The translations under genes were made by a program, and so were the position numbers. Positions 2,451 through 40,259 of a stretch of DNA of 56,311 bases are shown here, piece after piece. The stretch's first letter is position 1; each line of letters opens with the position of its first letter. The notes below the pieces were generated by a model. The model saw only the letters and a list, made by a program, of their open reading frames with translations, searched no databases and was not told where the DNA came from. The DNA is from a virus, in the IMG/VR virus record IMGVR_UViG_3300021420_000314, positions 1-56,311 of that record; one strand, 5' to 3'.

Positions 2451-3629
2451 TTACAGACCGGAGTTCGAGACCACCGCATACCCGACGAGGGTCGGGTTGA
2501 TGACCTGGAATCCCCAGACCTGCAGACCGCGCATCAAGGTGCCGAAGGTGCTCTCCGAGCGGAGAGTCTCGACCTTCGTCATCTGCGACGCGAACGTCAG
2601 ACCCAGCGCGTGGCCGAAGTACACACCGTACTCACCGGCTGCGAGGGTCGCGGCAAGACCAGCCGCGGCGGCGCTCGTCGCACCAGCGGTACCCGCACCC
2701 GCGCCGCTGCCGATGGGCAGCAGGTTGGACACGTACACCGTGAAGCGATCGATCATGCCCAGGCGCCCGTTGCGCGCGATGGACACTGCGTCACCGGTCA
2801 AGTACGCCTGCTGGAACGCAGACCGCTTGACCATGGCCGCTGCCCAGGCGGGCAGAACGATCCAGCGGCCCGTCTCCGGGACGCGCTGTTCGTCGAGCGC
2901 CTGACCAGCGTCGATGATGAAGTCGAGCACAGCCTTCGCCGAGCTCTTGCTGTAGCCCACGCCCTGCGTCTCCGCGACGCCGTAGAACGTGCCGGGCGAT
3001 CCCGGGGTCTGGGTCGAACGGGCCAGCCAGAGCGGAGCTCCGACGTACTTCTGCGTGCCAGCGGCGCCGAAGAAGATGACCGAGTTCGTCGAAGCGCCGA
3101 AGTTCAGCGTCTGCGACAGACGTCCCGCCTGCGGGCCGAGGTTGGCGCTCACGCCGCCGGCGCTGACCACGATGGTCGTGGCTCCGGAGACCTGGTTGCC
3201 GATGCTCGTTGCAGCGAGGATCTGGCCGTCGACGTAAACCTTCATCTGCTCAGAGGCGTTGTCCGCCCAGTTGCTCAGCAGGTCGACGTCCGCCTGGATC
3301 TCCATCACGTCGTCGAGGACGGTGTTGAAGTAGGCGCCCTGGTTGATGAACAGCTGCACGAGGTTCGAGCTCGGCCGCTGAACGGTCAGTGCCTGGTCCG
3401 TGGTGTAGGCCAGGATGTTGATCGTCGGATGGGTACGGATGTTGACGGTGTCGCCAAAGTTCCGGATCTCACCCTCGTAGTCGGTCGAGGCGATCGCGCC
3501 GAGGACGGTCGCGTCGTAGAACTTCTCGACGAACTTGCCCGACCAGATTGTCGGGATGAAAATGCCTGAGTAGGCCGGATTGGCGCTTGAGCCAAGGTAC
3601 GGCGTACCGACGGGATATACGGTCGTCAT
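2451..3629 (-). CDS. Major capsid (coat) protein
   Basis: The product is 392 residues. The ATG is preceded by a GGAG site. It follows the scaffold gene and precedes a strong terminator, the standard place for the coat gene. The N-terminus (residues 1-60: TPYLGSSANPAYSGIFIPTIWSGKF, then YDATVLGAIASTDYEGEI) and the sentence-like pattern IRTHPTINILAY and DVMEIQADVDLLSNWADNASEQM resemble phage coat proteins of the HK97-fold group with separate scaffold (P22/T7-like). A Gly/Ala-rich loop at about 310-335 (GSGAGAGTAGATSAAAAG) may be a surface insertion. No protease is seen, so processing is unlikely. Function strong from context and sequence style. Confidence 0.9.
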   Translation of the reverse strand: MTTVYPVGTPYLGSSANPAYSGIFIPTIWSGKFVEKFYDATVLGAIASTDYEGEIRNFGDTVNIRTHPTINILAYTTDQALTVQRPSSNLVQLFINQGAYFNTVLDDVMEIQADVDLLSNWADNASEQMKVYVDGQILAATSIGNQVSGATTIVVSAGGVSANLGPQAGRLSQTLNFGASTNSVIFFGAAGTQKYVGAPLWLARSTQTPGSPGTFYGVAETQGVGYSKSSAKAVLDFIIDAGQALDEQRVPETGRWIVLPAWAAAMVKRSAFQQAYLTGDAVSIARNGRLGMIDRFTVYVSNLLPIGSGAGAGTAGATSAAAAGLAATLAAGEYGVYFGHALGLTFASQMTKVETLRSESTFGTLMRGLQVWGFQVINPTLVGYAVVSNSGL

Positions 3630-3694
3630 GTCATGCTCCTGCCGGCTTGGTGACCGGTCTTATGTCCGACGCCGTGACAGCGGCGTGGGACTGG

Positions 3695-4804
3695 TTACGC
3701 GTTGTTCAGCAAGTGCGAATTCGTGCGGTCAGGTCGGACTCGTCCGTCCTTGATGGCCGCTCTCAGGTCCGCTTCGAGAGTTGCCTTCTCTGCGGGCGAG
3801 ATGCGATTTCGCTGCACACGGGAGTAAAAGTCTCTGACCTCTTGTTCAGACCAGATTCTTCCACTGGCGTTACCAGGAGCTGCCGCGCCATCCGTCCGGC
3901 CTTGGCCGGGGGCGAGTAGTGTTGCCGGATCGAGCTGCGCGGTGCGCGGCGGATCAGCAGTTACTCGGCGCTGAGCGTCTTCCTCAGCCTTGAATGCCTT
4001 GAACATCGCGACGACCCGTGTGGAATCGCCTGATTCAAACGCATTCATCAACCCCACTTTGCGGGGTACACCAGAGAATATATCGATCTGACTGGCCCAG
4101 TCAAGGAACTCCTGACTGCCGTTGATCAGTACAGCGTCAGCTCCGAAGGCTTCATGGAGGGCTTCCCAGACACGGCCCTGTGAGTCCGCGGCAGCGCGCT
4201 GCACGGCAGCGCCGGCCAGCTGCGCGGCCTGACCAGCCTGTTGCGCGACGGGGGCAACAGCCTGCTGGGCGGCGCGAGCGGCAACGTTGCCGATCAGCTC
4301 CACCAGATCAGGACCGAAGTCAGACATCTGCTTGTCGGAAACACCGAACGAGCGCGCCATGTCGGCGGCCGTCGGCGCGGGGGCAGGGGCGGGCGCGACG
4401 GGAGCCGGCACAGAGCGCATCTGCTCGATCAGGCGAGCCTGTTCCTGGATCAGCCGATTGCGTTCGGCCATCTCCTGGTTGTACTTGCCCTGCAGCACCT
4501 TGTAGCGCTGCTCGAATTCGTTCACCGGTGCCGCGGACACGGCGGGCTGAGCTGTCGCGCTCGGGCCGGGCGCCTGGGGCGGGGGATTCGCGGGCGGTGC
4601 GGCGGCCTGCGGCGGCGCCGGAACAGCGTCGGGCGGCGGTGCAGCACCGACGTTCGGCAGGTTCGGAGGCGGCGCGGACGGCGCCTGGCCCTGCTGCGGC
4701 ATACCGGGGATCGGCTCGCCGGCGGCGAAGGCTTTGATCTGAGCGTTGGCCTGCTTCACCTGGCGGCGAGCGGCGGCGGGCATGTTCGACTGCGGAGCGT
4801 TCAT
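3695..4804 (-). CDS. Capsid scaffolding protein
   Basis: The product is 369 residues. The N-terminal third is rich in Pro, Ala and Gln (residues 30-95). A charged helical segment predicted as coiled coil follows (residues about 95-135, EFEQRYKVLQGKYNQEMAERN). A second helical region covers 160-270, and the C-terminus is basic and charged (SPAEKATLEADLRAAIKDGRVRPDRTN). This architecture, together with the position between portal and coat genes, is typical of internal scaffolds that bind coat through a helical C-terminus. The start overlaps the stop of the preceding gene (ATGA), indicating translational coupling. Confidence 0.85.
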   Translation of the reverse strand: MNAPQSNMPAAARRQVKQANAQIKAFAAGEPIPGMPQQGQAPSAPPPNLPNVGAAPPPDAVPAPPQAAAPPANPPPQAPGPSATAQPAVSAAPVNEFEQRYKVLQGKYNQEMAERNRLIQEQARLIEQMRSVPAPVAPAPAPAPTAADMARSFGVSDKQMSDFGPDLVELIGNVAARAAQQAVAPVAQQAGQAAQLAGAAVQRAAADSQGRVWEALHEAFGADAVLINGSQEFLDWASQIDIFSGVPRKVGLMNAFESGDSTRVVAMFKAFKAEEDAQRRVTADPPRTAQLDPATLLAPGQGRTDGAAAPGNASGRIWSEQEVRDFYSRVQRNRISPAEKATLEADLRAAIKDGRVRPDRTNSHLLNNA

Positions 4805-5007
4805 GAGTTCTCGTTCTTCACTAGGAGGTTGAGGAGGATATCGTATGCGCGGGCCTCGCCAATGTTGGCTTCCCGGTCGAGCGCATCGTAGAGGATCTTG
4901 TGCACAGCATCGTCACGTTTGACCTGTAACATCACCACGTAATCCCTGTAGACGGGTGTCTGTCTGAACTGCGCGACGAGGCGCACCATGTCTGTTCGGG
5001 AAGCCAT
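4801..5007 (-). CDS. Small helical protein of the head block
   Basis: The product is 68 residues, charged and apparently all helical (MVRLVAQFRQTPVYRDYVV, then LDREANIGEARAYDILLNLL). No family is recognised. The gene is coupled at both ends: its start overlaps the upstream stop (TAATG), and its stop overlaps the start of the scaffold gene (ATGA). The tight coupling between portal and scaffold suggests a structural or assembly role, which is inference. Confidence 0.75.
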   Translation of the reverse strand: MASRTDMVRLVAQFRQTPVYRDYVVMLQVKRDDAVHKILYDALDREANIGEARAYDILLNLLVKNENS

Positions 5008-5261
5008 TACCAGCGCAGCGGGTTGCCCAGGGCCTCAGTGACGGTGTCGGAATCTTCCTTGTCCGGCCCCTTCTTGAGGTAGTCCTTGGTGTAAACGCGG
5101 GAGGGCGGAGCGCCCTCGCCGCCATGACGACGCCCGAGGTCGGCAGCTTGGCCCATGCGAATGTCCTGAGTTTTCAGGACCTTTGTGCCGGCTGACTGCT
5201 CTTCTTTTGTGTGGGCGTCGGGCTTCTGAACGTGGTCTGTTGGTGCGTTGGTGAAGCTCAT
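5007..5261 (-). CDS. Small hydrophilic head-block protein
   Basis: The product is 84 residues, highly polar and rich in Lys, Asp, Gly and Thr, with few hydrophobic core residues and probably partly disordered. It contains RVYTKDYLKKGPDKED and a C-terminal EALGNPLRW. The gene lies between two coupled neighbours (ATGA and TAATG overlaps). It resembles the two genes before it in being a small basic, low-complexity protein between portal and scaffold. Function unknown; a minor head component is possible. Confidence 0.75.
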   Translation of the reverse strand: MSFTNAPTDHVQKPDAHTKEEQSAGTKVLKTQDIRMGQAADLGRRHGGEGAPPSRVYTKDYLKKGPDKEDSDTVTEALGNPLRW

Positions 5262-5560
5262 TTGCTGTTACCACGCCGGGTGTTGAGGTGGTTGGGACGG
5301 TTCGGCTTCGAGGGGCGCCCCTCGATGTGGACAGGCCCCGTGGTGCGCAGCGCGTCACGGCGCCCAGGGAAGTCCACGGCGGGAGAATTGATAATCGCGG
5401 TCGGCGCCGGCGGCAGCGGGACGATCGTGTCCTTGCTGAAGTGTTTGCCGTGCTCTTTGCCACGATGCACATCCTTGCGGAACTCGGGGATGTGCGTCGT
5501 CGAGTTCTGGAAGGTCGTGCCGAAGGAGGCACCGCTTGTCGGTGGCTTCTTGTGCTTCAT
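5258..5560 (-). CDS. Small basic head-block protein with one IVP..PT motif
   Basis: The product is 100 residues, basic, with HRGKEHGKHFSKD and a C-terminal RPSKPNRPNHLNTRRGN. Residues about 45-65 read TIVPLPPAPTAIINSPAVDFPG. This matches the repeat found twice in the next upstream protein (IVPxxxGPTxTCNDPxI) but without the cysteine. The start and stop both overlap neighbours by ATGA. Its low hydrophobic content suggests an extended or disordered protein. Function unknown; the shared motif suggests that the two proteins bind the same partner, perhaps the capsid lattice. Confidence 0.75.
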   Translation of the reverse strand: MKHKKPPTSGASFGTTFQNSTTHIPEFRKDVHRGKEHGKHFSKDTIVPLPPAPTAIINSPAVDFPGRRDALRTTGPVHIEGRPSKPNRPNHLNTRRGNSK

Positions 5561-6069
5561 TTGGTGTCGAATCCGTGATCCGGGTGGCTGTTGTTGCCCC
5601 CGCGTACCGGCTTGCCCTTCTTCTCGTAGGACTTCTTCAGGCCGTAGCCCTCGCGTCCACCGCCATCGTCGGTGTCGCCGACCGTCTTGATGCGGTCCGC
5701 CGTCAGACGCCGCATGTTCGAGGCGATGACCTTGCCAGTTGAGTCCGGCAGACCATGCTGAAGATCGTTGACCGGCTTGTGGATCGGTGACTCACCGTAC
5801 GGGAAGTCGATGGCCGGGTCATTGCAGGTGATCGTCGGGCCAGCCTTCTCGGGGACGATCGTGCGAGCGCCGACATCTTTGTGCGCGCCATGGCTGGGCT
5901 GAGTCTTGCCGCGGTTGTCCTTGCCACGCATGAGCTTGTTGTGCCCACTCGTATTGGTCTCGCCAATGACAGGATCGTTGCAGGTGAAGGTCGGGCCTTG
6001 CTTCTGCGGGACGATCTGCGCGCTACCGGAAACTTTGCCGGCGTGGGTGACGTTGCGTGGGTTGGCCAT
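5557..6069 (-). CDS. Head-block protein with duplicated IVP..TCNDP motif
   Basis: The product is 170 residues from the ATG at 6069, chosen because AGGA lies eight bases ahead; an ATG seven codons upstream has no such site. Two copies of an IVPxxxGPTxTCNDPxI segment lie about 60 residues apart, each with one cysteine. The second copy continues as DFPYGESP. The DNA of the two copies is also alike (around 5818-5850 and 5970-6005), so this is an internal duplication. The rest is polar and Gly/Lys/Asp-rich. A third, diverged copy lies in the next gene. No known family is recognised; a minor capsid or decoration role is inferred from position. Confidence 0.75.
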   Translation of the reverse strand: MANPRNVTHAGKVSGSAQIVPQKQGPTFTCNDPVIGETNTSGHNKLMRGKDNRGKTQPSHGAHKDVGARTIVPEKAGPTITCNDPAIDFPYGESPIHKPVNDLQHGLPDSTGKVIASNMRRLTADRIKTVGDTDDGGGREGYGLKKSYEKKGKPVRGGNNSHPDHGFDTK

Positions 6070-12398: not shown

Positions 12399-12658
12399 CA
12401 GACGACCGTCCGGGTGATGAGGAGGTGCTTCGCGACCTCGCAGAGGGCTATTACGCTCCCACGGCTATCAGCCCGGTACGTAACGGAGATCTTGCCCTCG
12501 TCGCACTCGCAGATGAACACGGCCGAGTGCGGCTTCTGCGCCAGACCCTCGGTGACGTTCTTCAGGAACATCTCGAACGTGTCTTCCTGCTTCTCGGCGT
12601 TGAGCTCCGCCTTGGTCTTGAAGACCGTGATCTTGGCATCGGGACTTTCCTCGGTCAC
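12398..12658 (-). CDS. Small protein, GTG start coupled to the RHH gene
   Basis: The product is 86 residues, starting with GTG at 12658 in a GTGA overlap with the stop of the ribbon-helix-helix gene. The N-terminal half is charged (KTKAELNAEKQEDTFEMFLK). The second half has VFICECDEGKISVTYRAD and a final LCEVAKHLLITR. No family is recognised. Coupling with a regulator upstream and the small terminase downstream suggests one polycistronic message. Confidence 0.65.
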   Translation of the reverse strand: MTEESPDAKITVFKTKAELNAEKQEDTFEMFLKNVTEGLAQKPHSAVFICECDEGKISVTYRADSRGSVIALCEVAKHLLITRTVV

Positions 12659-12852
12659 TGGTTCATCTCCTTCAGCGCGCGCTCCTCGGCGAGGATTTCG
12701 CGCCCCTTGGTGAGAACGTACTCCCGACAGGCGTCGCGGAGCAACTCTGAGTACGCGCACCCGCGGCGCAGTGCCAGGCGCTTGATGGCGTCCAGCACCT
12801 GCCGATTCAGGTACACGTTGACCTTGACGGAGTCTGTGTCGGTTCGAGACAT
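12655..12852 (-). CDS. Ribbon-helix-helix (CopG/Arc-type) DNA-binding protein
   Basis: The product is 65 residues. It begins with a polar beta strand (SVKVNVYLNRQ), then helix A (VLDAIKRLALRRG), a turn and helix B (AYSELLRDACREYVLTKG). This is the classic RHH plan, in which two strands of a dimer lie in the major groove. It is probably a transcriptional regulator of the phage. The ATG at 12852 has no Shine-Dalgarno site, whereas a TATAAT box lies only six bases upstream, so a leaderless message is likely. The stop overlaps the next gene (GTGA). Fold call strong; target sites unknown. Confidence 0.8.
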   Translation of the reverse strand: MSRTDTDSVKVNVYLNRQVLDAIKRLALRRGCAYSELLRDACREYVLTKGREILAEERALKEMNQ

Positions 12853-13323: not shown

Positions 13324-13565
13324 ACTGCGCGTCCCTGTCGCTTCGGGCGCTTCTTCTCGCGGGTCTTCATGAACGTGTCCGGGTCGCTCACGTATTTCTG
13401 GAGCACCAGGATGAACTCATCGATCCCGATCTCCTCTGGGAAGGTCAGCTGGATCGACCCCCGGATCGTCTGGATCATGCCACCCATGTGGTTCAACGCA
13501 AAGCCCGCGATGCCCGCGACGGCTTGCAGCGAGTTGATGTGATCAGCGAGCTCTGCCTTGTTCAT
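13320..13565 (-). CDS. Hypothetical small protein
   Basis: The product is 81 residues from the ATG at 13565, coupled to the upstream stop by ATGA. It is helical with a mildly hydrophobic centre (SLQAVAGIAGFALNHMGGMI), then IGIDEFILVLQKYVSDPDTFMK and a basic C-terminus (REKKRPKRQGRAV). No family recognised. It belongs to the chain of coupled genes that leads into the terminase block. Confidence 0.7.
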   Translation of the reverse strand: MNKAELADHINSLQAVAGIAGFALNHMGGMIQTIRGSIQLTFPEEIGIDEFILVLQKYVSDPDTFMKTREKKRPKRQGRAV

Positions 13566-13858
13566 GCCGGTCTCCCCTTCAGGATCCACTCCAGGTGCGC
13601 GCGCCAGTGCTCGAGCGGCGCATCGGCATCCACGAACGTCACACGTTCGGCCTTATCCCCGAACGTCTGCCCATGACCGTCTTCTAGTATGCACATCCTT
13701 CTGATGATGTACTGCCACTTCTTCCCCGCGGGCTTGGCGGGCATGTCGAACGGTCCGGTAAGATTCACGTCCTCGGGTATGAGCTTCAGGAGCTCGAGCA
13801 GCCCGTCGGGCACGGCGCCGTGCACGGTCAGCTGTCCGGTGGTCTTGTCGGTGATCAT
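13562..13858 (-). CDS. Hypothetical small protein
   Basis: The product is 98 residues from the ATG at 13858, which forms an ATGA overlap with the DUF4329-like gene. It begins MITDKTTGQLTVHGAVPDGL and continues with a beta/alpha mix (PEDVNLTGPFDMPAKPAGKK, then WQYIIRRMCILEDGHGQ and DADAPLEHWRAHLEWILKG). No family recognised. Translational coupling with both neighbours is clear. Confidence 0.7.
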   Translation of the reverse strand: MITDKTTGQLTVHGAVPDGLLELLKLIPEDVNLTGPFDMPAKPAGKKWQYIIRRMCILEDGHGQTFGDKAERVTFVDADAPLEHWRAHLEWILKGRPA

Positions 13859-14337
13859 GACCGCGGCGCGATCTGTCCTATGATCCGGCCCTGGGTCAGC
13901 CACAGGCCGTCCATCACCGCCTCGTTGCTCGGCGGATCTATCGTCCAGTCGAACTCGTGGACCTTGCCGGTGCACAGGTCGACCATGACGGACACCAGGT
14001 GCTGGGTGATCGCGGTGGCGAGATCGATGTCGGAGAAGTACGCGTTCAGGTGAAACGGCTGGCACGGATGGGTGTGGTAGATCCCGATGAGCTTCCAGTC
14101 GAACGGCACGGTGACGTCGAGCTCAATCCCGTCGGTCTGCCCGCTCGTCTTGGGATCACTGACGATGTACCGGCCATTCGGCATCAGGGCGATGTTCCCG
14201 CCGTACTCGAGCTTGGCCGATTTCCTGGCCGATATCTCGGCCGCGTGCACCGCCGCCTCGTTGAACGTCTCATATCCTAACTGCGCCGGTATCGGCGTGT
14301 TCGCGGTCAGTAGAATTGAGGCGATGAGAGCGAGCAT
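13855..14337 (-). CDS. Secreted DUF4329/JAB-like protein
   Basis: The product is 160 residues from the ATG at 14337. This start is preferred over one 50 codons upstream because it begins with a signal-like segment (MLALIASILLTANTPIPA) and the upstream codons run through the promoter region. The body reads KSAKLEYGGNIALMPNGRYI, then IELDVTVPFDWKLIGIYHTHP and YFSDIDLATAI. HTHP followed by SDxD is the metal-binding signature of JAB/MPN-type and DUF4329 domains, which include metallo-isopeptidases and toxin-linked domains. It is the first gene of the leftward block. Activity and the need for export are inferred. Confidence 0.7.
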   Translation of the reverse strand: MLALIASILLTANTPIPAQLGYETFNEAAVHAAEISARKSAKLEYGGNIALMPNGRYIVSDPKTSGQTDGIELDVTVPFDWKLIGIYHTHPCQPFHLNAYFSDIDLATAITQHLVSVMVDLCTGKVHEFDWTIDPPSNEAVMDGLWLTQGRIIGQIAPRS

Positions 14338-14351
14338 GCCCCACTCTACGA

Positions 14352-14405
14352 TTGAAGCGGGCCTCACGTCAATGTTTATTGGGCTATAAATGTTGACGTC
14401 AAAAA
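14352..14405 (-). promoter_or_regulatory. Candidate promoter and TGACGTCA palindrome for the leftward block
   Basis: The minus strand carries TTGACG (14402-14397) inside the perfect palindrome TTGACGTCAA (14393-14402). About 17 bases further is an AT-rich stretch (ATAAAC) that is only a weak -10 match. A second ACGTCAA lies at 14366-14372. The start codon of the first leftward gene is 30-60 bases downstream. The palindrome is shared with 2314-2323. Confidence 0.35.
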
Positions 14406-14868
14406 TTTTCCAGGAACTATTTGCGAAGGGGATAGGCGCCCGCGCCGGGGGGTACCCCCCTTGTCCATGTGCCCATGGGGTGGTCATAACGTATTAACAT
14501 AATGGGCCAAAAACCCCTATGTTTGAGGCGAACCGCCGCACGTCGAGCCCGCAAGGCCCGCCCGGTCACTAACCTCTAGGTGCAAGCCTACCGCGTGAAT
14601 GCGCACAGGGTATCTGACATAAGTCGTTACGAGCCTAACGGGCTGGTCCGCCTCAGAGAGAGTAAGCGCGGCGAAGTAGCGCGGCTTAAGCGCCGAACAT
14701 AGCAGCGGGTCCGCACGCGCCGCTATCCGGGTACCCGCGCACGGTTGCGCGTAGGTGGTACGCTGGTCTCGCCGTACATGTCTGCCTCGTTTGGCATTCT
14801 ATCGGGAGAACGGTAATACGTGCACATACTGGCGTGTGATAGCAGTATGAGGGGCAGATTATTTAGAA

Positions 14869-14926
14869 TAGGCCTGCGTGGTATGTAAGGTTGTGAACGA
14901 TAGTACCTTAGTGCCTCGCAGGCCTA
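14869..14926 (+). ncRNA. Nested stem-loop, possible structured RNA
   Basis: TAGGCCTGCG and CGCAGGCCTA form a perfect 10-bp outer stem. Inside it TAAGGT and ACCTTA form a 6-bp inner stem with a 13-base loop. On the plus strand it is followed by GATTTTGG. It may be a small RNA, an attenuator or terminator, or a hairpin element of the origin. The perfect stems in non-coding DNA argue against chance. Confidence 0.45.
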
Positions 14927-14938
14927 GATTTTGGCGAG

Positions 14939-15047
14939 TAAGCGTCACATGTGGAACGCAAGCGTCACGTCCAAGCCCATGAAAGCTAAGACTAATGACT
15001 CTTATGACTCTTGTGACTCTTATAAACCAATTGTAGATAGACTCTTA
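14939..15047. repeat. Iteron array 1 (TGACNCTTR, both orientations)
   Basis: Two inverted copies, TAAGCGTCA (14939) and CAAGCGTCA (14959), are 20 bases apart. They are followed by three head-to-tail direct copies TGACTCTTA, TGACTCTTG and TGACTCTTA at 14996, 15005 and 15014. A one-mismatch copy AGACTCTTA lies at 15039. The 9-bp tandem spacing and neighbouring AT-rich DNA are typical of iterons bound by replication initiators or cooperative regulators. Confidence 0.75.
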
Positions 15048-15118
15048 AAGTAGATTGAGGACAAGAGAGGCCAAGCGGGCCTTCCCCCCGCCTCTGGAGA
15101 ATTGACTTTCTGCTGTCT

Positions 15119-15191
15119 CAAGCGTCGCATGAGTCATTCGTCAATGTTTTCAATAACATGGCGGTGACGCTTATGACCCTTGTGACGCTTG
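15119..15191. repeat. Iteron array 2 (TGACNCTTR)
   Basis: Three direct 9-bp copies TGACGCTTA, TGACCCTTG and TGACGCTTG lie at 15165, 15174 and 15183, the same tandem plan as array 1. Degenerate inverted copies CAAGCGTCG and CATGAGTCA lie at 15119 and 15128. The array ends about 45 bases before the first rightward start codon, so it could also act as an operator for the early unit. Confidence 0.75.
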
Positions 15192-15236
15192 TCTGTAAGC
15201 CCGCGAGGCCCGCATCTACCATACATGGAGACGTTC

Positions 15237-15410
15237 ATGCTTATCCGCGTGCAAGCGCCAAGCTCGCGCAAGGGTAAAGCGTTGATTATCAAGCGTAATC
15301 GGAAGCATAACGCGGTTATGCGCCGGATGCGCGCGATCATGGCAATCTGGGGCCGGGGCGATTCGCCCGGCGTCCGATGCCTGTCAACGCATTACAGGCC
15401 GAGAGCGTAG
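15237..15410 (+). CDS. Small basic protein, first gene of the rightward block
   Basis: The product is 57 residues from the ATG at 15237, preceded by GGAG at a good distance. It is strongly basic (SSRKGKALIIKRNRKHNAVM, then RRMRAIMAIWGRG). No family recognised; binding to nucleic acid is possible from charge alone. It begins about 45 bases after iteron array 2. A moderate call, since the C-terminal part is ordinary and there is no overlap with a neighbour. Confidence 0.5.
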   Translation: MLIRVQAPSSRKGKALIIKRNRKHNAVMRRMRAIMAIWGRGDSPGVRCLSTHYRPRA

Positions 15411-15413
15411 CGC

Positions 15414-15461
15414 GACTGTGCAGCCCGCGAGAGGCTGTGCAGTCCGATGCACTCTCGCATC
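15414..15461 (+). promoter_or_regulatory. Two consecutive hairpins in the leader of the next gene
   Basis: GACTGTGCAGCC and GGCTGTGCAGTC pair over 12 bp (two G-U pairs) with a 7-base loop at 15414-15444. A second small hairpin, GATGC-N6-GCATC, is at 15446-15461, followed by ATTTCTGTCC. They start four bases after the stop of the previous gene and lie upstream of the start at 15488. They could be an attenuator or weak terminator. Confidence 0.4.
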
Positions 15462-15487
15462 ATTTCTGTCCTATAGGGGTTAGTCAC

Positions 15488-16027
15488 ATGACTATCGTTA
15501 GAAAGTCGATCGAAGCCATCGTAGAGGCGATTGGACAGGTGGCGGCCACGGGTGCGGCATTTCAGGTGCTCGTCCATGAGACCGCTGTCCAGACGCTCTT
15601 GCTCGTTCGCGAGGAGGGCGATTGGGGTCCGGCACGGGATCTCATGAACGCGATGCCCAAGGGCGCGCGCCGTGAGGCTCTGGCGATCTGGTTCAAGCGC
15701 TTCTCGAACGACAAGCTGCGATTCAGCACGGTCAAGGAGACCGGCCTGTACAAGGGTCATCTCTCCAGCGACCGCGCGTTGTCGGATTTCGACGTTGACG
15801 GCGCTGCCGCTGTCAACTTCGCTGATCTGACCACGGAGCCGAAGGCGAGCACGTTCACCTTGGAGCAGCTCATAAAGACGCTGCAAGCGAAAGCGACCAA
15901 TACCAAGGTCAACGACGATGGCACGCCGAAAGTCGATGAGCGCGCGCGGGCAATGGCCAGCAAGCTCCTCGCGGCGATCTATGGCGGCGGCATCCCCGCC
16001 CCGGTCGCGGCACCCACGGTTCAGTAG
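15488..16027 (+). CDS. Hypothetical early protein
   Basis: The product is 179 residues from the ATG at 15488. The first 110 residues are helical (KSIEAIVEAIGQVAATGAAF, then HETAVQTLLLVREEGDWGPA and MPKGARREALAIWFKRFSND). Then come GLYKGHLSSDRALSDFDVDG and a C-terminal charged helix with an Ala/Pro tail. The segment AIWFKRFSNDKLRF is reminiscent of phage proteins of unknown function from replication regions. It is the first sizeable gene of the rightward unit, so likely early expressed. Role unknown. Confidence 0.8.
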   Translation: MTIVRKSIEAIVEAIGQVAATGAAFQVLVHETAVQTLLLVREEGDWGPARDLMNAMPKGARREALAIWFKRFSNDKLRFSTVKETGLYKGHLSSDRALSDFDVDGAAAVNFADLTTEPKASTFTLEQLIKTLQAKATNTKVNDDGTPKVDERARAMASKLLAAIYGGGIPAPVAAPTVQ

Positions 16028-16091
16028 TCCGAAGCTGAGCCTTCCACAGAGCCCCGGAGACCGATCCGGGGCTCGATGGAGGGTTTACACA

Positions 16092-16259
16092 ATGACCATT
16101 CCGATTGCAAACCCGCATGGGCGGCCGTACAACCATCGCTACGCCGAGCAGGTGAGCGAGTTGCGCTGGCACGTATTCATCCGTCGATTCTGGGTAGCTC
16201 TGGGCATGGACGACAAGAGTCGCGAGGCCCGTGCTGCCCGCTGGCACGCAGGAGAGTGA
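16092..16259 (+). CDS. Hypothetical small protein
   Basis: The product is 55 residues. The ATG at 16092 follows a strong GGAGGG site. It is rich in aromatic and Arg residues (PHGRPYNHRYAEQVSELRWH, then VFIRRFWVALGMDDKSREAR). No family recognised. One base separates its stop from the next start. Confidence 0.65.
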   Translation: MTIPIANPHGRPYNHRYAEQVSELRWHVFIRRFWVALGMDDKSREARAARWHAGE

Positions 16260-16260
16260 G

Positions 16261-16470
16261 ATGCCGAATCCTGACCTGATCGACGCGCCGCCCGAGTGGC
16301 GCGTATGGGAGCAAATCACAGGCGATGAGCCGCGTGAGCACGCAGCCCGCGTGGCCCGTGAATCCCGCGCGTATCGCGCAGGTGAGCCGCTGAGCCGTTC
16401 TTTGCCACAACACATGCCGGGCTCGCAGCGTGGCCGGTGTTACTGGTGTACGCTGCCGCAAGGAGAGTAA
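16261..16470 (+). CDS. Hypothetical small protein
   Basis: The product is 69 residues, with a GGAGAG site just ahead of the ATG at 16261. It begins MPNPDLIDAPPEWRVWEQIT, has an Arg/Ala-rich middle (HAARVARESRAYRAGE), and ends with a CYWC pair that may bind metal only if joined by others. No family recognised. Confidence 0.6.
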   Translation: MPNPDLIDAPPEWRVWEQITGDEPREHAARVARESRAYRAGEPLSRSLPQHMPGSQRGRCYWCTLPQGE

Positions 16471-16472
16471 CC

Positions 16473-16610
16473 ATGATCCCGCTGAGTGTCTTGCTCTGCT
16501 GGTGGCTGGCAGCGCACCGAAACCGTTCATGGTGGTTCGCATGGTGGGGTCTGTTAGGCCCGCTTGCGCTCATTTGGATGTTGTTCTTCCTTGAGAGGAA
16601 AGTAAAATGA
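16473..16610 (+). CDS. Tiny membrane protein
   Basis: The product is 45 residues, preceded by AGGAGAG. It is very rich in Trp and Leu: MIPLSVLLCWWLAAHRNRSW, then WFAWWGLLGPLALIWMLFFL and a basic end (ERKVK). Two short membrane spans are predicted. The stop overlaps the next start (ATGA). Tiny early membrane proteins often affect host envelope functions; the function here is unknown. Confidence 0.6.
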   Translation: MIPLSVLLCWWLAAHRNRSWWFAWWGLLGPLALIWMLFFLERKVK

Positions 16611-16768
16611 CAATCTATCTTCTGGTCCTGATGCTGCAAGGGCAGCTTGCCCTGACAACCGAGCCCGTGGGGTATTCAAGCGCGTCTGAGTGCATCAAGA
16701 CTGCGGACAAGCTGAATGCGAATCTAGGCCATCACTCGGCCGTGTGCGTGGCCGTGAAGGTGCTGTGA
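16607..16768 (+). CDS. Small exported protein with two cysteines
   Basis: The product is 53 residues, coupled to the previous gene by ATGA. A short hydrophobic N-terminus (MTIYLLVLMLQGQLALT) looks like a signal segment. It is followed by ASECIKTADKLNANLGHHSA and VCVAVKVL. The two Cys could form a disulphide in the periplasm. Small phage proteins of this pattern are common but uncharacterised. Confidence 0.55.
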   Translation: MTIYLLVLMLQGQLALTTEPVGYSSASECIKTADKLNANLGHHSAVCVAVKVL

Positions 16769-16875
16769 TGTTCACACTGAATATCATGCTCGCCATGTCG
16801 TGTGCGAGCGTGCTTGTTGGTGGCTGGCGATGCTACCGCTGGTGGGTGAACTATGGACACCTGTTCCGGGTCTGA
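16768..16875 (+). CDS. Tiny membrane protein
   Basis: The product is 35 residues, starting in a TGATG overlap. One hydrophobic segment (FTLNIMLAMSCASVLVGGW) is followed by a basic aromatic tail (RCYRWWVNYGHLFRV). No ribosome site of its own is clear, so it may rely on coupling. Function unknown. Confidence 0.5.
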   Translation: MFTLNIMLAMSCASVLVGGWRCYRWWVNYGHLFRV

Positions 16876-17113
16876 GGTCTTAAGCTGGACGCCCGCGGTG
16901 GTTGCGAACTACCTGATCGTGTCTCACTACGGTTACGTGCGAGACACGTTTTTGGTCAACAGCGTGAGGCCGTTGCCGCCGCGAGGTGCTGCGCACTTCG
17001 GACACATGGCGAAGCTCCTTGGCCTTTCTCCTAACAACCACGACGAGTTCCTGTTCGATGTGTGGTGCGCGCTCGCGGCCAAGCTGGACGTGACGCTGCA
17101 TACCGTGGATTGA
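16853..17113 (+). CDS. Hypothetical protein
   Basis: The product is 86 residues, overlapping the previous gene by 23 bases in another frame. It reads as a compact soluble helical protein (SWTPAVVANYLIVSHYGYVR, then PPRGAAHFGHMAKLLGLSPN and DEFLFDVWCALAAKLDV). No family recognised. The next gene starts after a 43-base gap holding a copy of the GGCCCGCGAGGCCCG motif. Confidence 0.65.
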   Translation: MDTCSGSEVLSWTPAVVANYLIVSHYGYVRDTFLVNSVRPLPPRGAAHFGHMAKLLGLSPNNHDEFLFDVWCALAAKLDVTLHTVD

Positions 17114-17156
17114 TTAACTGATTTTTTGGCCCGCGAGGCCCGATTAGGGAGAGTCT

Positions 17157-17486
17157 ATGACAGACATAACGCGCGCCACGGAGGATTCGCAGCCCGATAG
17201 CCCAGAGCCTGACAGCTCCACGAAAGCACTGCGACCCTTACCTGTGTGGTTGGTGACGCTGAACGCGCTGCACTCCATTGAGTGGCGCTTCGAGCGAGAG
17301 TGCCTTGATAGCACCAGCGCCGACTGCTATTACAGTCTTCGCTGCACCCAATGTGGTGCAGTGTTGAATACCTCTTTCTGGCACCCGGATTACTCGAATT
17401 GGAGCGTGCCCGATGAGTACATCGAAGCCTATGAGAACATGCGCAAGCGGCATGAACACCACGCGCACAAGAAGTCCAACACCTAA
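17157..17486 (+). CDS. Hypothetical protein with a CxxC pair
   Basis: The product is 109 residues with a GGGAGAG site before the ATG. The first 35 residues are polar and probably flexible. The core has WRFERECLDSTSADCYYSLR, CTQCGAVLNTSFWHPD and a C-terminal His/Lys-rich helix (MRKRHEHHAHKKSN). The CTQC pair with an upstream Cys/His could make a zinc site. Role unknown. Confidence 0.65.
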   Translation: MTDITRATEDSQPDSPEPDSSTKALRPLPVWLVTLNALHSIEWRFERECLDSTSADCYYSLRCTQCGAVLNTSFWHPDYSNWSVPDEYIEAYENMRKRHEHHAHKKSNT

Positions 17487-17568
17487 GCAACGAGCCCGCG
17501 CAGCCCGTGAGGCTGCTAGACTCGCGTACTTCAAGTCGCTGCCCAATGCGCCGAGGGACCGTGTATGA
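17452..17568 (+). CDS. Possible tiny basic protein overlapping the previous gene
   Basis: The frame gives 38 residues (TRSPTPKQRARAAREAARLA, then YFKSLPNAPRDRV), very basic. It overlaps the end of the previous gene by 35 bases and its stop overlaps the next start (ATGA). Part of it encodes a variant of the dispersed CCCGCG.GCCCG repeat. The coupling supports it, but composition alone does not. Confidence 0.4.
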   Translation: MNTTRTRSPTPKQRARAAREAARLAYFKSLPNAPRDRV

Positions 17569-25249: not shown

Positions 25250-26035
25250 ATGATGGCGTCGAATCAAATGACCGGCGTCGAGCGCCGGGAGATCACCAGC
25301 GCAGTCGAGGAGCTGTTGGGCCGCGGCGTGCTGTTCTACCGCTGCCCACTTGTCAGCCGACAGGAGCTGGATGATGTTTGGATGTCCATGCTGCGTCCTG
25401 ACGTCGCAGCCGCCATACGCACGATGCGCAGGGCAGGCTACGGTCTTCGCGGAGACGTTCAGGAGTACTCCGAGTTCACGTGGGACGAGATGGGCGCGTG
25501 TATCGGTTTCCACATCCGAAACTGGCCCGATCCGGGGCCACTATACTTCGTCGAGTCACCCCGAAACAGCCGTATGCACATGCAAAAGTCGCAGCACGAG
25601 CTGGAGGTTCTGTTCCAGACATTCAAGGGCGACGGCACCGACACCCATCCCCTGAAGCTGTTCCGCACATGGGTCAAGGATTCAATGGCCTTCCACAACG
25701 AGGCTACCCGCGCGCTGAGCTGCTTTGGCGACATCATGAAGCTCGCCAGCACGCCGGGGCAGGTGTTCCGGATGGTCCCGGACCTCGTGCAGTACATGAC
25801 CCCCAGCATGAAGAACAAGGTCGGGGACAGGTCCAGCCCGGTCCCGGTCCGAATACTGGACTCGGACGGTACAGTTAGGCGGGAAGGTTGGGCAGAATAT
25901 GACAAGGACAAGGTGCTAGCTATGTGCCATACTTTGGCGAAGTGCTATCTCCTACCCAAACCGGACTCAGCCATTGAGTTCACCAACGCCCTCGGCTGGA
26001 ACCCATGGTGCAGCCCTCGTCGATCTGGGACTTGA
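25250..26035 (+). CDS. Hypothetical protein upstream of DNA polymerase
   Basis: The product is 261 residues; AAGGAGGG lies directly before tandem ATGs (25250 or 25253). It is a soluble protein with ITSAVEELLGRGVLFYRCPL, SEFTWDEMGACIGFHIRNWP, QVFRMVPDLVQYMTPSMKNK and SSPVPVRILDSDGTVRREGW. No family recognised. The last 62 bases overlap the DNA polymerase gene in another frame. Confidence 0.75.
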   Translation: MMASNQMTGVERREITSAVEELLGRGVLFYRCPLVSRQELDDVWMSMLRPDVAAAIRTMRRAGYGLRGDVQEYSEFTWDEMGACIGFHIRNWPDPGPLYFVESPRNSRMHMQKSQHELEVLFQTFKGDGTDTHPLKLFRTWVKDSMAFHNEATRALSCFGDIMKLASTPGQVFRMVPDLVQYMTPSMKNKVGDRSSPVPVRILDSDGTVRREGWAEYDKDKVLAMCHTLAKCYLLPKPDSAIEFTNALGWNPWCSPRRSGT

Positions 26036-27872
26036 CTTCGAGACGTACTACGACTCGGATTACACCCTCAAGAAGTTCACCACCACCGAGTACCTGTTAG
26101 ACCCGCGCTTCGAGATCATCGGCGTAGGGTTAGTCTCGGGCAAACAAAAAGTCTGGTTTAGCGGCCCGCTGGATTACATCCGGCTCATGCTCAACCCGCT
26201 CCCCTGGCACCGCATTCGTGTGGTAGCGCACAACGCGATTTTCGATGGCGGTATCTTAGAGTGGAAGCTCGGCATCAAGCCCGCGAAGTATATGTGCACG
26301 ATGATGGGAGTGCGCCCCTATGTCACGCCGTACACGGGTCGTTCCGACTTGGGTTCCACCCTTAAATTCCTTGATCTTGGCGAAAAAGGAACTGACGTCC
26401 AGAACCATGTCGGGCGTAAGCGAGCAGATTTTACTGTTGAGCAGCTTGCCTCCTACGGTGAGTATTGCAAAGGTGACGCACTGGGCTCGCTGCGCATTGC
26501 GCAGTGGCTGTCTAGCAAACTTCCGGAGGACGAGCAGGAGCTGATCGACCTGACCATCAAGAAGTTCCTGCATCCGAAGCTACATGTCAACACTGACATA
26601 ATCGACCACCACCTGAACCGGATCAATCTCTCGAAGGCCGCCCTGGTTGGCGCGCTTGCGAAGTGCAACATCACCGCCGAGCAGATCCGTTCAAGACCCC
26701 AGTTCAGGAAGCTGCTAGAGAGCAAGGGCGTCGCGGCGCCGCTCAAGACCAGCATACGGACCGGACAACTCACTGAGGCGTTCTCCAAGCAGGACGCGCC
26801 GTTCCTTGCGCTGCAGAACGACCCCAAGGTAGGGTGGCTGATCGAGGCCCGCTTGGCGCTAGCCTCGAACATGGAAGAGACGCGTCTAACCAGGGTCCGT
26901 GCAGTCGCGAAGGCGACCGGCGGGTCTCTGCCGGTGCCGTTACTGTACTATGGCGCACATCCCGGCCGATTCTCGGGGCTGGACAAGATCAACTTACAGA
27001 ACCTGCCGCGGCTCAAGAAGCTCCCTGATGACACGATTGACCCAAACAGCGGCTCGTTGCGCCGCGCGCTGGTGGCTCCTCCCGGAAGTACGGTTATCGC
27101 AGCTGACCTCGCTCAGATCGAGGCGCGGATCACCGCCGTACTGGCAGGATGCGTTGAACTCATTACTGCATTCCGGGAAAATCGTGACGTCTACAGCGCG
27201 TTCGCGAGTGAGATCTACGGACGACGAATCACTAAGGCCGACCTCATTGAGAGGTTCGTTGGCAAGACGTGCATCCTTGGCCTTGGGTTCGGTATGGGCT
27301 GGGGGAAATTTCACAAGCAGATGGCGCTCGCCAAGGTAGCGATGTCGCCGAAGAAAGCTGCTGACGTCGTGTATCTATACCGGCGCATGTACGCCAAGAT
27401 CCCGGACCTCTGGGCGATGATGGAGTTCTACGTCAACCAGATGCGCGACCCGCGTTGCCTTGAGATCCGCGGCCCGCTGACGCTCATGCATGAACGTATC
27501 GTGTTGCCCAACGGGATGCCGATCATCTATCCCGAGCTGGATGTGACACCCGGTCAAGGGTTCACATTCAAAGACAGGAGAGCCTATGACGGAGAAACAC
27601 GAGTACATCTTTGGGGCGGTGCGGTTACGGAAAACGTCGTGCAAGCTCTTGCTCGAATCATTCTCACGCGAGCCGAGCTGCGACTGGCGAAGGCTGGTCT
27701 GCGAGCTGCTCTGCAGGTCCACGATGAGCTGGTATTTGTGGTGCGCGACAAGAAGGTGGGGATCGCGACTCAAGCCATCCGCCTTGCAATGGAAGCGCCG
27801 GTGGACTTCCTCCCAGAACTGCCGGTCAAAGTTGAGATAAGCCACGGTAAGTCATACGGAGAAGCGAAATGA
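25974..27872 (+). CDS. Family A DNA polymerase with 3'-5' exonuclease domain
   Basis: The product is 632 residues if it starts at TTG 25974; no in-frame ATG or GTG precedes the exonuclease motif. The exonuclease domain shows DFETYYD (D21, E23), HNAIFDGG and YCKGDALGS, the DEDDy set. The polymerase domain shows motif A IAADLAQIEAR (D378), motif B with R427, K431, L435 and F439 (RFVGKTCILGLGFGMGWG), and motif C QVHDELV (H583-D584-E585). L435 corresponds to F762 of E. coli Pol I, a residue that affects nucleotide selection; Leu there is a known viral variant. It probably replicates the phage genome with the nearby primase-helicase. The stop overlaps the next gene by ATGA. Confidence 0.93.
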   Translation: MSSPTPSAGTHGAALVDLGLDFETYYDSDYTLKKFTTTEYLLDPRFEIIGVGLVSGKQKVWFSGPLDYIRLMLNPLPWHRIRVVAHNAIFDGGILEWKLGIKPAKYMCTMMGVRPYVTPYTGRSDLGSTLKFLDLGEKGTDVQNHVGRKRADFTVEQLASYGEYCKGDALGSLRIAQWLSSKLPEDEQELIDLTIKKFLHPKLHVNTDIIDHHLNRINLSKAALVGALAKCNITAEQIRSRPQFRKLLESKGVAAPLKTSIRTGQLTEAFSKQDAPFLALQNDPKVGWLIEARLALASNMEETRLTRVRAVAKATGGSLPVPLLYYGAHPGRFSGLDKINLQNLPRLKKLPDDTIDPNSGSLRRALVAPPGSTVIAADLAQIEARITAVLAGCVELITAFRENRDVYSAFASEIYGRRITKADLIERFVGKTCILGLGFGMGWGKFHKQMALAKVAMSPKKAADVVYLYRRMYAKIPDLWAMMEFYVNQMRDPRCLEIRGPLTLMHERIVLPNGMPIIYPELDVTPGQGFTFKDRRAYDGETRVHLWGGAVTENVVQALARIILTRAELRLAKAGLRAALQVHDELVFVVRDKKVGIATQAIRLAMEAPVDFLPELPVKVEISHGKSYGEAK

Positions 27873-36216: not shown

Positions 36217-36360
36217 CTCACCCCCGCTGGCGGGGCCCGCTCAGTCGGGATAGCCAGATGTGGATCAGCCGGCCAGTACCACAATCGCGATAAACCCCGG
36301 CAGTCGGAGCTCGTCGTACTTGCGCTCGCGGCAAAACCTCCCGGCGGGTGATCCGTCCGG

Positions 36361-37875: not shown

Positions 37876-40245
37876 ATGAAAAAGTTCTTCGAGCGGGTCC
37901 TGCCAGATGGGGGGTCGTATAGCCTACTCGCGCTGAGCAAGGGGTCACCGCCGCTAGAGCTGAACGGGATACCCACGTTCGATGCCCTGGTGCACCGGGC
38001 TACCCAGGCCAGCACGAGTCCGCTAGACGTCTACTATGCGGTTGGTTCCTACAAGCCATCTGGACGGCGGGGTGAAGAGGCGCTTGCGAAACGCGCCCTC
38101 TTTCTCGATCTCGATGCTAAGGACTTCGGTTCTAAAGCTGGCACCCTTACGGCACTTAACACATTCGTACGCAGTGTGGGCCTACCAGCTCCGGCCATCG
38201 TGGTCGATTCGGGTGGTGGATACCATGTCTACTGGCCGTTTGCGGAACCTCTGGAGGTGGCCGCTTGGCGAGCTCTGGCCCTGGCGCTCAAAGCGGCATG
38301 TAAGTCAACTGGCTTCGACGCCGATCCTACCGCTACCGCAGACGCTGCGCGCGTTCTACGGATACCCGGGACCCTTAATCACAAATACATACCGCCGCGT
38401 CCTGTTCAAGTGCTACAGGATACTGGCGCGGTGTTTGAACCCGCGGATCTTTTTCGTGCCCTCCAGCCCCAACAAGTTGCCCTGGCCGATACCGCCCTCC
38501 CCGTACCAAAGAGTGCACTCGATACAAGTATCAACGACGACCTCGCAGGGGGGACATCGTATGACCCGCTTACTAGCACCGAAGTAGAGTCGATGCTGAA
38601 GGCGATCGTTATCCCCTCGACGGGTAACGAGCGCCGCAATACGTGGACTCTGGTGCTCGCGGCCCTGAAAGACTGGGACCAGGGCGAGGAAGGTTTCAAG
38701 CTGGCAGACGCTTGGAGTTCGTCCCAGGCTGCGTACCGCGGCACCGCCGACGTGCGCAAGACCTGGGACTCTTTTGTCCGTTCCGATGGACCCAAGGTCA
38801 CGATTGGAACCATCGTCAAGATGGCGAAGGACGCTGGCTGGTCGGGACCTGTCGCGGAGGATGATCATGACGTCGTCGATGTCAGCTCTCAAGGGTTCAT
38901 TGCGGAGGCTGTACGCGCTGATGTTCGCGCGCAGGAGTCTCTGGCGCGAGGCCGCAATCGCCTTACGATTGAAGAAGCCCGATCAACTCTCACCTCCGAT
39001 TTTATATATGTCGAAAACCAAGGAACTTATTACTCTATCGGCAGACGGAACTGTCTGGGTAAGGAAGTCATCGACGACCTCAACGCCTGGCGCATGCCAC
39101 GAAGCAGCAACGGAGCATCGCTCTCTGCGGTCACCATCCTCAAGAATTCTCCCAACACTCGGCAGGTGGACTCACTGGGCTTCGCGCCTGGTCAGAGCTT
39201 TGTGTTCTCTGAGAACAACCGTCGTTACGTCAATCGGTATGTGGATCCGCCACCTGAAGTGGTCCCGGCAAAAGCAGAGGCTGAACTGTTTCGAGATCTC
39301 TGCGATTACCTTTTTCCCCGCCCGGGGGATCAAGCCTTCAAGCGCTATTGGCTGCAGTATATGGGGCACGTCGTACAGAAACCGCAGACCAAGATCGCTA
39401 CGGCGCTTCTTTTCATCTCTGAGAAGGAAGGTATCGGCAAGACCCTCGCCCTCTACGACATCCCCCGTCTCCTGGTGGGAGTAGACAATGCTACGAAGGT
39501 TACAAATGATGACCTTGAAGGTCGTTTTACAGGCTACCTGGGAAACGCCCACCTCCTCCATCTTGAGGAGATCCACGTCAACGGTCACTGGAGCTCTTCT
39601 AAGATTGCCAACAAGCTCAAGGCTGTTATTACAGACGCTACTGTGCGAGTTGAGCAGAAGGGACTCGACGTGTACAACATACCGAATCGTCTTGTCGTTA
39701 CTGCCACGTCGAACTATAACGATGCTATGTTCATCTCCTCCAGACAGGAGCGACGATGGGGAATCTATGAGCTTTCACCCGATCGCGCCTATAGTGAATC
39801 CCAGCACCGCAAATACTTTGACCTCATCCACCGTTTCCTGGCGAGCGACCGGGCGGCAGGAGTTCTACGTTTCATCTTTGGACGTATCAACCTCGCTGGC
39901 TTCAACCCACAAACCCCCCCACCGATGACGCTGGCCAAGCAGCGCATGAGCGTGCTGTCGATGTCAGAGGAATGCCAGGTGATTCATGATGCTATGGCAA
40001 ATGGTCTCACACCGTTTCATCGTGACCTATTTCAAATCGATGAGGTGCGCGGACTGCTTAAGACGGAACTCAATAAAGTTGTTTCCTCCAAGTGGGCCGC
40101 CCAGCAGCTTCTGCGAGTCGTGCCGGATGCAACGATGACACGTACACGAATTGGCCAGGGAGTAGTTCGAGTCTGGTGCTGGAAGAATCAGTCCCAGTGG
40201 AGGGGCGTTATCGGTGACACCATTAAGAAAGAGCTCGAGCGTTAG
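37876..40245 (+). CDS. Primase-helicase (AEP-like primase fused to superfamily 3-type helicase)
   Basis: The product is 789 residues. The N-terminal part shows primase-polymerase motifs: FLDLDAKD (D78, D80), SGGGYHVYW (H117) and ADAARVLRIPGTLNHK (about 154-169). A central linker with PriCT-like helices covers 240-330. The C-terminal helicase shows EKEGIGKT (516-523) as Walker A, HLLHLEEIHVNG as Walker B, and VVTATSNYNDAMFIS as motif C. This makes primers and unwinds DNA for the family A polymerase. It is the last rightward gene; its stop codon overlaps that of the convergent giant gene. Confidence 0.88.
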   Translation: MKKFFERVLPDGGSYSLLALSKGSPPLELNGIPTFDALVHRATQASTSPLDVYYAVGSYKPSGRRGEEALAKRALFLDLDAKDFGSKAGTLTALNTFVRSVGLPAPAIVVDSGGGYHVYWPFAEPLEVAAWRALALALKAACKSTGFDADPTATADAARVLRIPGTLNHKYIPPRPVQVLQDTGAVFEPADLFRALQPQQVALADTALPVPKSALDTSINDDLAGGTSYDPLTSTEVESMLKAIVIPSTGNERRNTWTLVLAALKDWDQGEEGFKLADAWSSSQAAYRGTADVRKTWDSFVRSDGPKVTIGTIVKMAKDAGWSGPVAEDDHDVVDVSSQGFIAEAVRADVRAQESLARGRNRLTIEEARSTLTSDFIYVENQGTYYSIGRRNCLGKEVIDDLNAWRMPRSSNGASLSAVTILKNSPNTRQVDSLGFAPGQSFVFSENNRRYVNRYVDPPPEVVPAKAEAELFRDLCDYLFPRPGDQAFKRYWLQYMGHVVQKPQTKIATALLFISEKEGIGKTLALYDIPRLLVGVDNATKVTNDDLEGRFTGYLGNAHLLHLEEIHVNGHWSSSKIANKLKAVITDATVRVEQKGLDVYNIPNRLVVTATSNYNDAMFISSRQERRWGIYELSPDRAYSESQHRKYFDLIHRFLASDRAAGVLRFIFGRINLAGFNPQTPPPMTLAKQRMSVLSMSEECQVIHDAMANGLTPFHRDLFQIDEVRGLLKTELNKVVSSKWAAQQLLRVVPDATMTRTRIGQGVVRVWCWKNQSQWRGVIGDTIKKELER

Positions 40246-40259
40246 TAGTTCACGAGCTC
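40231..40259. terminator. Hairpin over the convergent stop codons
   Basis: GAGCTCG (40231-40237) and CGAGCTC (40253-40259) form a 7-bp stem with a 15-base loop that contains both stop codons of the convergent genes. On the minus strand it is followed by TTTCTT; on the plus strand by TTTG only. It probably serves mainly the leftward transcripts. Confidence 0.55.

Follow-up and report, generated by a model that had tools for sequence, protein, structure and literature searches.

Paired iteron sets in a divergent intergenic gap, a candidate replication origin in a full-size podovirus-like phage

The IMG/VR virus record IMGVR_UViG_3300021420_000314, analysed here as a whole and called the window (56,311 bases), belongs to a full-size podovirus-like phage of 56 kb that carries an array of 9-bp iterons of the form TGACNCTTR between its structural and its replication genes. 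This array is probably the origin of DNA replication of the phage (we put the probability at about 0.72, from sequence comparison), and replication would start there. A candidate origin had been proposed in a preliminary description of this DNA, and it is still the best-supported reading: relatives carry arrays at the same place, each with a word of its own, and the word of the window is found beside primase-helicase genes in unrelated viruses.

The array consists of two iteron sets (14939-15047 and 15119-15191), in each of which a perfect head-to-tail triplet comes after the inverted copies. The two exact triplets previously described are present, with starts separated by 169 bp. The inverted copies listed with them are exact at 14939 and 14959, but those at 15119 and 15128 carry one mismatch, which had not been stated; the array holds three one-mismatch copies in all, the third being at 15039. 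The features of the region are as follows:

14488-15487, no strand: divergent intergenic gap between leftward structural/packaging genes and rightward replication genes, the sole divergent gap
14939-14947, minus strand: inverted iteron TGACGCTTA, exact, set 1 (motif search)
14959-14967, minus strand: inverted iteron TGACGCTTG, exact, set 1 (motif search)
14980-15060, no strand: AT-rich stretch, candidate unwinding element (AT content of 40-mers)
14996-15022, plus strand: head-to-tail triplet TGACTCTTA TGACTCTTG TGACTCTTA, set 1 (motif search)
15039-15047, plus strand: degenerate iteron AGACTCTTA, one mismatch, set 1 (mismatch search)
15066-15097, no strand: G+C-rich stretch between the sets, possible imperfect hairpin (AGAGGC...GCCTCT; by eye, unfolded)
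15119-15127, minus strand: inverted iteron CGACGCTTG, one mismatch, set 2 (mismatch search)
15128-15136, minus strand: inverted iteron TGACTCATG, one mismatch, set 2 (mismatch search)
15165-15191, plus strand: head-to-tail triplet TGACGCTTA TGACCCTTG TGACGCTTG, set 2 (motif search)

A genome-wide search for TGACNCTTR had been set beforehand as a test of the proposal, and it revealed that the copies are clustered and not evenly frequent. The whole window contains nine exact copies (shuffled sequence gave a mean of 2.66 and a maximum of 6), eight of which fall in 14939-15191 and one elsewhere in the genome. The Poisson probability of at least eight copies in that segment is around 1e-20, and each of 2,000 local shuffles gave one copy at most. 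When up to one mismatch is allowed, the 1-kb gap has 14 sites, while the rest of the genome has about 1.1 per kb. Besides, the gap 14488-15487 is the longest real non-coding stretch of the window (1,150 bp if measured to the start given by the gene caller) and the only divergent one, in agreement with the earlier statement that the array lies in the only long non-coding stretch. The AT-rich DNA reported between the arrays was also recovered: the best 40-mer (15020-15059), located between the triplets, has 72% AT in a genome with 40% AT, and the 60-mer 14996-15055 ties as the most AT-rich of the genome, whereas 15060-15100 is G+C-rich instead.

Relatives of the phage were collected by a terminase scan that provided 57 loci (L-numbers are used here as labels for relatives and for IMG/VR matches). 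None of these 57 loci contains a TGACNCTTR array, and for this reason other words were searched by a blind finder based on repeated-word counting, with no assumed sequence; a similar finder, applied to 5.5 Mb of Markov-randomised sequence, gave 6 matches. In eight relatives the blind search found arrays close to where the early block begins, with the words GGGACAAA (L005), GTAACAGT (L014), ACATACGT (L018), CTGTAAG (L023), TAATTGGCA (L041), TAATTGTC (L042), ATTTGTAT (L044) and TGAACACC (L050), a unit spacing of 8 or 9 bp and, mostly, both orientations. Five more arrays were recognised by eye in the matching gap (GATACAAA in L006, a word like GACACTTA in L019, GGCCACTT in L033, ATAACAGA in L035 and a weak one in L031), and they count less because AT-rich DNA guided the eye. 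In short, the arrays of these relatives occupy the same place and differ in their word of 8-9 bp, which is phage-specific. The most AT-rich 40-mer of the locus is inside the array or at most 100 bp from it in seven of the eight blind-found relatives; for the window and 12 relatives together it is at the array in 11 of 13 cases against 0.5 expected, a count in which the by-eye arrays are not AT-blind.

Other elements were noted in these gaps. In Rhizobium phage RHph_TM3_14A (L060) the gap at this place is AT-rich and without a clear iteron array. A second conserved element, ATCAATGNNTTAG, is found in or beside the arrays of L005 (4280), L006 (3029), L014 (3832) and L042 (6828), and also in the matching gap of RHph_TM3_14A (19443 and 19759); the window holds only a loose form of it, GCTAAGACTAATGAC, near 14983-14997. 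The heptamer AGCCCGC is over-represented in the noncoding DNA of L005, L006, L014, L018, L023, L031 (where 12 of the 21 copies lie within the noncoding 22%) and L035, and there are few copies in the window.

The position of the array bears on two other readings, which involve the products of the following genes:

12655-12852, minus strand: ribbon-helix-helix (RHH) protein of the leftward operon, an unlikely reader of the array (RHH_1 match)
15488-16027, plus strand: first rightward gene, phrog_1448, function unknown (in most relatives the array has next to it either a homologue or a gene of comparable size that looks unrelated)

The array could be an operator through which a cooperative repressor or activator, for instance this RHH protein, acts as a switch on the early and late promoters, which diverge here. 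The array of the window lies within the divergent gap, the RHH_1 protein is encoded by the phage itself, and known proteins of this type, such as omega, MetJ and ParR, recognise short direct and inverted repeats that have no spacers. However, in six relatives (L005, L006, L041, L042, L044 and L050) the array is outside the divergent gap, inside the rightward block and downstream of the gene that opens it; it is therefore not tied to divergent promoters, and these six cases speak against a pure role as promoter-operator. The promoter-like sites of the region are only two, weak and near chance. As for the protein, close relatives conserve it, and its predicted DNA-contact residues (K/R-N-Y, placed by analogy to Arc) are constant in the window, L003, L005, L006, L014, L019 and L031, while the words of the known arrays differ; strand residues varying with the word, as would be expected from an RHH operator, were not observed. 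The family was not detected in L041, L042, L044 and L050, more distant relatives that are array-bearing partial contigs covering the region from the array to the terminase. The constancy of the residues and the lack of detection in these four relatives make the RHH protein an unlikely reader. The cooperative-repressor alternative of the preliminary description is left unsupported in its RHH form, and an operator function in general appears improbable.

It could also be proposed that the product of the first rightward gene is an initiator or regulator that reads the array adjacent to it, as the phrog_1448 gene or one of similar size is beside the array in most relatives. This is very unlikely in view of L041, L042, L044 and L050, whose array-neighbour gene has no detectable similarity to the phrog_1448 product. 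The model of this product is mostly helical, with a predicted local distance difference test score (pLDDT) of 83, and no DNA-binding protein of solved structure matches it significantly; among its structural relatives are T7-like phage proteins (e.g. from Caulobacter phage Percy and Ralstonia phage RSB3). T7-like phages replicate with a primase-helicase of T7 type.

The second line of evidence for an origin comes from viruses outside this group. IMG/VR was scanned for two adjacent units of the window's word, and at least 119 stretches were obtained; by a rough estimate, about as many would be expected by chance alone, and a single pair therefore carries little weight. A mixed-orientation array was defined as four or more TGACNCTT in 330 bp, with both strands represented. 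Among the matches listed, to which the following counts refer, 25 loci have such an array, 23 of them distinct, and an open reading frame (ORF) resembling a primase-helicase is found within 500 bp of 18 of the 23 distinct arrays and of 5 of the 94 non-array matches (Fisher p ~1e-12); at least one of those five (L161) is a weaker array. The arrays mostly touch the 3' end of the primase-helicase-like ORF or sit at most 180 bp from it. Independently, Pfam models detected primase or helicase domains in 16 of the 20 neighbour genes tested: in all ten large neighbours of a first batch, and in six of the ten of a second one that included fragments and wrong-strand ORFs. The domain types are diverse (Prim-Pol with D5_N, Toprim with D5, DUF3987, AAA_25 with Prim-Pol, and DUF7146 with Toprim). 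Comparable repeats 3' of the primase are also present in Arthrobacter phage ChuckDuck, Achromobacter phage phiAxp-2 and Pseudomonas phage vB_Pae-SS2019XI, those of the last two being recognised mainly by eye. Seven matches with one-strand copies at multiples of 9 bp (L091, L095, L115, L131, L144, L146 and L164) had the look of coding repeats and were discarded. In L128 the array (3090-3275) overlaps the 3' coding end of a primase-like gene (2964-5918, minus strand), and the repeats are consequently also translated (VTLVT).

The replication proteins of the window that matter here are two, and both had been claimed before:

25974-27872, plus strand: family A DNA polymerase (gene annotation)
37876-40245, plus strand: primase-helicase, proposed iteron reader (PriCT_2, DUF5906, a RepB_primase-like N-terminus below the cut-off and a variable C-terminal domain)

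The primase-helicase is the likeliest reader of the iterons, and on the basis of its sequence and of the associations described above we consider it rather probable that it reads them. It passes the Pfam cut-offs of DUF5906 (PF19263, E 1.2e-14) and PriCT_2 (PF08707, E 7.6e-12), and the solved structure nearest to its helicase part is 6k9c/6lrb (E 5.5e-14), entries which we take to be NrS-1 polymerase. The 90 C-terminal residues are 27-40% conserved among relatives, against 41-65% for the helicase core. The model of this C-terminus has the order strand-helix-helix-strand-strand that is expected of a winged helix, and the structure search with it gave no significant match, with mostly winged-helix proteins, regulators prominent among them, at the top of the list; a winged-helix fold is suggestive only. 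A C-terminal domain specific to readers of TGACNCTTR was also looked for and is not claimed, the all-against-all matches being weak (best E 0.01, L092). Scans of viral contigs for primases with the window protein and with that of L182 provided no new relatives.

The likeness to NrS-1 polymerase suggests another use of the repeats, namely as start sites that a primase domain of archaeo-eukaryotic type recognises in the single-stranded template, starting synthesis there. The sequences used by NrS-1 polymerase are TTTGGTTA and GTGA/GTGG (PMC8718748, PMC7102993); it initiates on an 8-nt stretch of the template and on GTGA (PMC8718748). GTGA is present at three plus-strand unit starts of the window's triplets, and also in GTGACACTT arrays of other viruses, but many words of the relatives (ACATACGT, GGGACAAA, TAATTGTC and ATAACAGA) have no GTG on either strand, and a design in which inverted and direct sets are paired about AT-rich DNA better suits the binding and melting of double-stranded DNA. 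Since the GTGA of the window is missing from the words of many relatives, start-site use is kept only as a lesser rival, highly improbable as the whole explanation, or as an added step, in which form it is compatible with an origin.

If the array is an origin, the process could be outlined as follows. The phage primase-helicase (37876-40245) would bind, through its C-terminal domain, the two sets of 9-bp iterons that flank or overlap AT-rich DNA. The steps after this binding, all of which we infer, would be its assembly on both sides and the melting of the AT-rich stretch, followed by its loading as helicase and the laying of primers, which the family A polymerase of the phage would extend, probably in both directions. 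A further and tentative idea, which we hold to be doubtful, is that the origin word and the primase-helicase domain reading it change together while the layout stays fixed, resulting in a replication specificity of each lineage and in an origin that acts far from its initiator gene.

Several points weigh against an origin read by the primase-helicase. The seeds of the ORF search were drawn partly from the array loci themselves, and about half of the 18 primase-adjacent cases correspond to one related primase group. A distance of 22.7 kb separates the primase-helicase gene from the array, but in the unrelated viruses and in phage-inducible chromosomal islands (PICIs) the two are adjacent. The C-terminal divergence is expected anyway and was compared in four or five proteins only, no match between word and domain was found, and the C-terminus is poorly modelled (pLDDT 58) and gave no significant match in the structure search. 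Regarding base composition, the extremes of the detrended cumulative AT and purine skews are at 14.3-17.1 kb, near the array, and at 38-41.8 kb, near the convergent point, but this turn cannot be told apart from the effect of the reversal in transcription direction, and the GC skew, once detrended, has its minimum at 50.2 kb, away from the array.

Concerning the rest of the genome, the phage encodes its own terminase, portal, capsid and other structural proteins, and its portal and the one of Rhizobium phage RHph_TM3_14A share 44% identity; no DNA-level similarity to 13500-17500 of the window was found among named phages. The structural and packaging genes run leftward from 14487 and the replication genes rightward from 15488 to 40245, with a convergent block beyond. 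The first gene of the leftward operon (13855-14337, minus strand) resembles DUF4329/Prok-JAB slightly under the cut-offs. A Proteo-phage-1 RNA (RF03044, 66.2 bits) is located at 36221-36305, plus strand, between a SNF2-like helicase gene and the next gene, and by far the largest protein of the genome (2,230 residues; 40242-46934, minus strand) is encoded convergently with the primase-helicase gene, with an overlap of 4 bases.

Most phage origins are unmapped. If the proposal is right, mixed-orientation iterons of 8-10 bp around AT-rich DNA, together with primase-helicases of this kind, would be an origin signature in many genomes, and full-size phages would share an origin design that has been reported as restricted to phage satellites. 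The variation of the word between relatives makes the coevolution of origin and initiator directly testable; if they do change together, each lineage could have replicon immunity to relatives or satellites that infect the same cell. The open-licence literature was searched, and no account of arrays like these in a full-size phage was found.

Among known systems, NrS-1 polymerase is similar in having a primase-polymerase fused to a helicase domain, the nearest solved structure, and its sequence-specific initiation has been discussed as an origin (PMC7102993, PMC8718748). On the other hand, there are two single 8-nt sites in the NrS-1 genome, with no iteron array described, and that polymerase is the only DNA polymerase of its phage, whereas the phage of the window also has one of family A. 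Iteron plasmids share the direct repeats adjoining AT-rich DNA; they differ in that no dedicated plasmid-type Rep is seen in the window, where helicase and primase are phage-encoded. The alpha protein of the satellite P4 joins primase and helicase in one protein, and P4 has iterons at ori and crr; the window resembles it in the single protein and in the short direct and inverted iterons. It differs in that the window protein falls short of the C-terminal model of the P4 family, TIGR01613 (unmatched at E 0.01; its relative L182 reaches 19.4 bits, the cut-off being 108.7), which the array-adjacent primases of L139 and L076 do reach. PMC6092414 refers to P4 alpha and to its origin site.

The closest parallel is the origin of PICIs, including the Staphylococcus aureus pathogenicity islands (SaPIs), a pri-rep-ori module in which the initiator has primase and helicase functions and two sets of short iterons flank an AT-rich region immediately 3' of the initiator gene (PMC6092414). 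The window has two sets of short iterons as well, and they flank AT-rich DNA (15020-15059), with 15060-15100 not AT-rich. By contrast, its array is at 14.9-15.2 kb and its primase-helicase at 37.9-40.2 kb, with a 3' end that overlaps the convergent gene, and PICIs are satellites that use the packaging of a helper, unlike a phage with its own terminase, portal and structural genes. The anatomy is shared while the adjacency and the satellite lifestyle are lacking, and the array is for this reason likened to a PICI origin and not filed as one. By this analogy it may work like a PICI-type origin in a full-size phage, a layout described so far mainly for phage satellites, and similar arrays next to a primase-helicase gene occur in several of the named phages and of the IMG/VR contigs.
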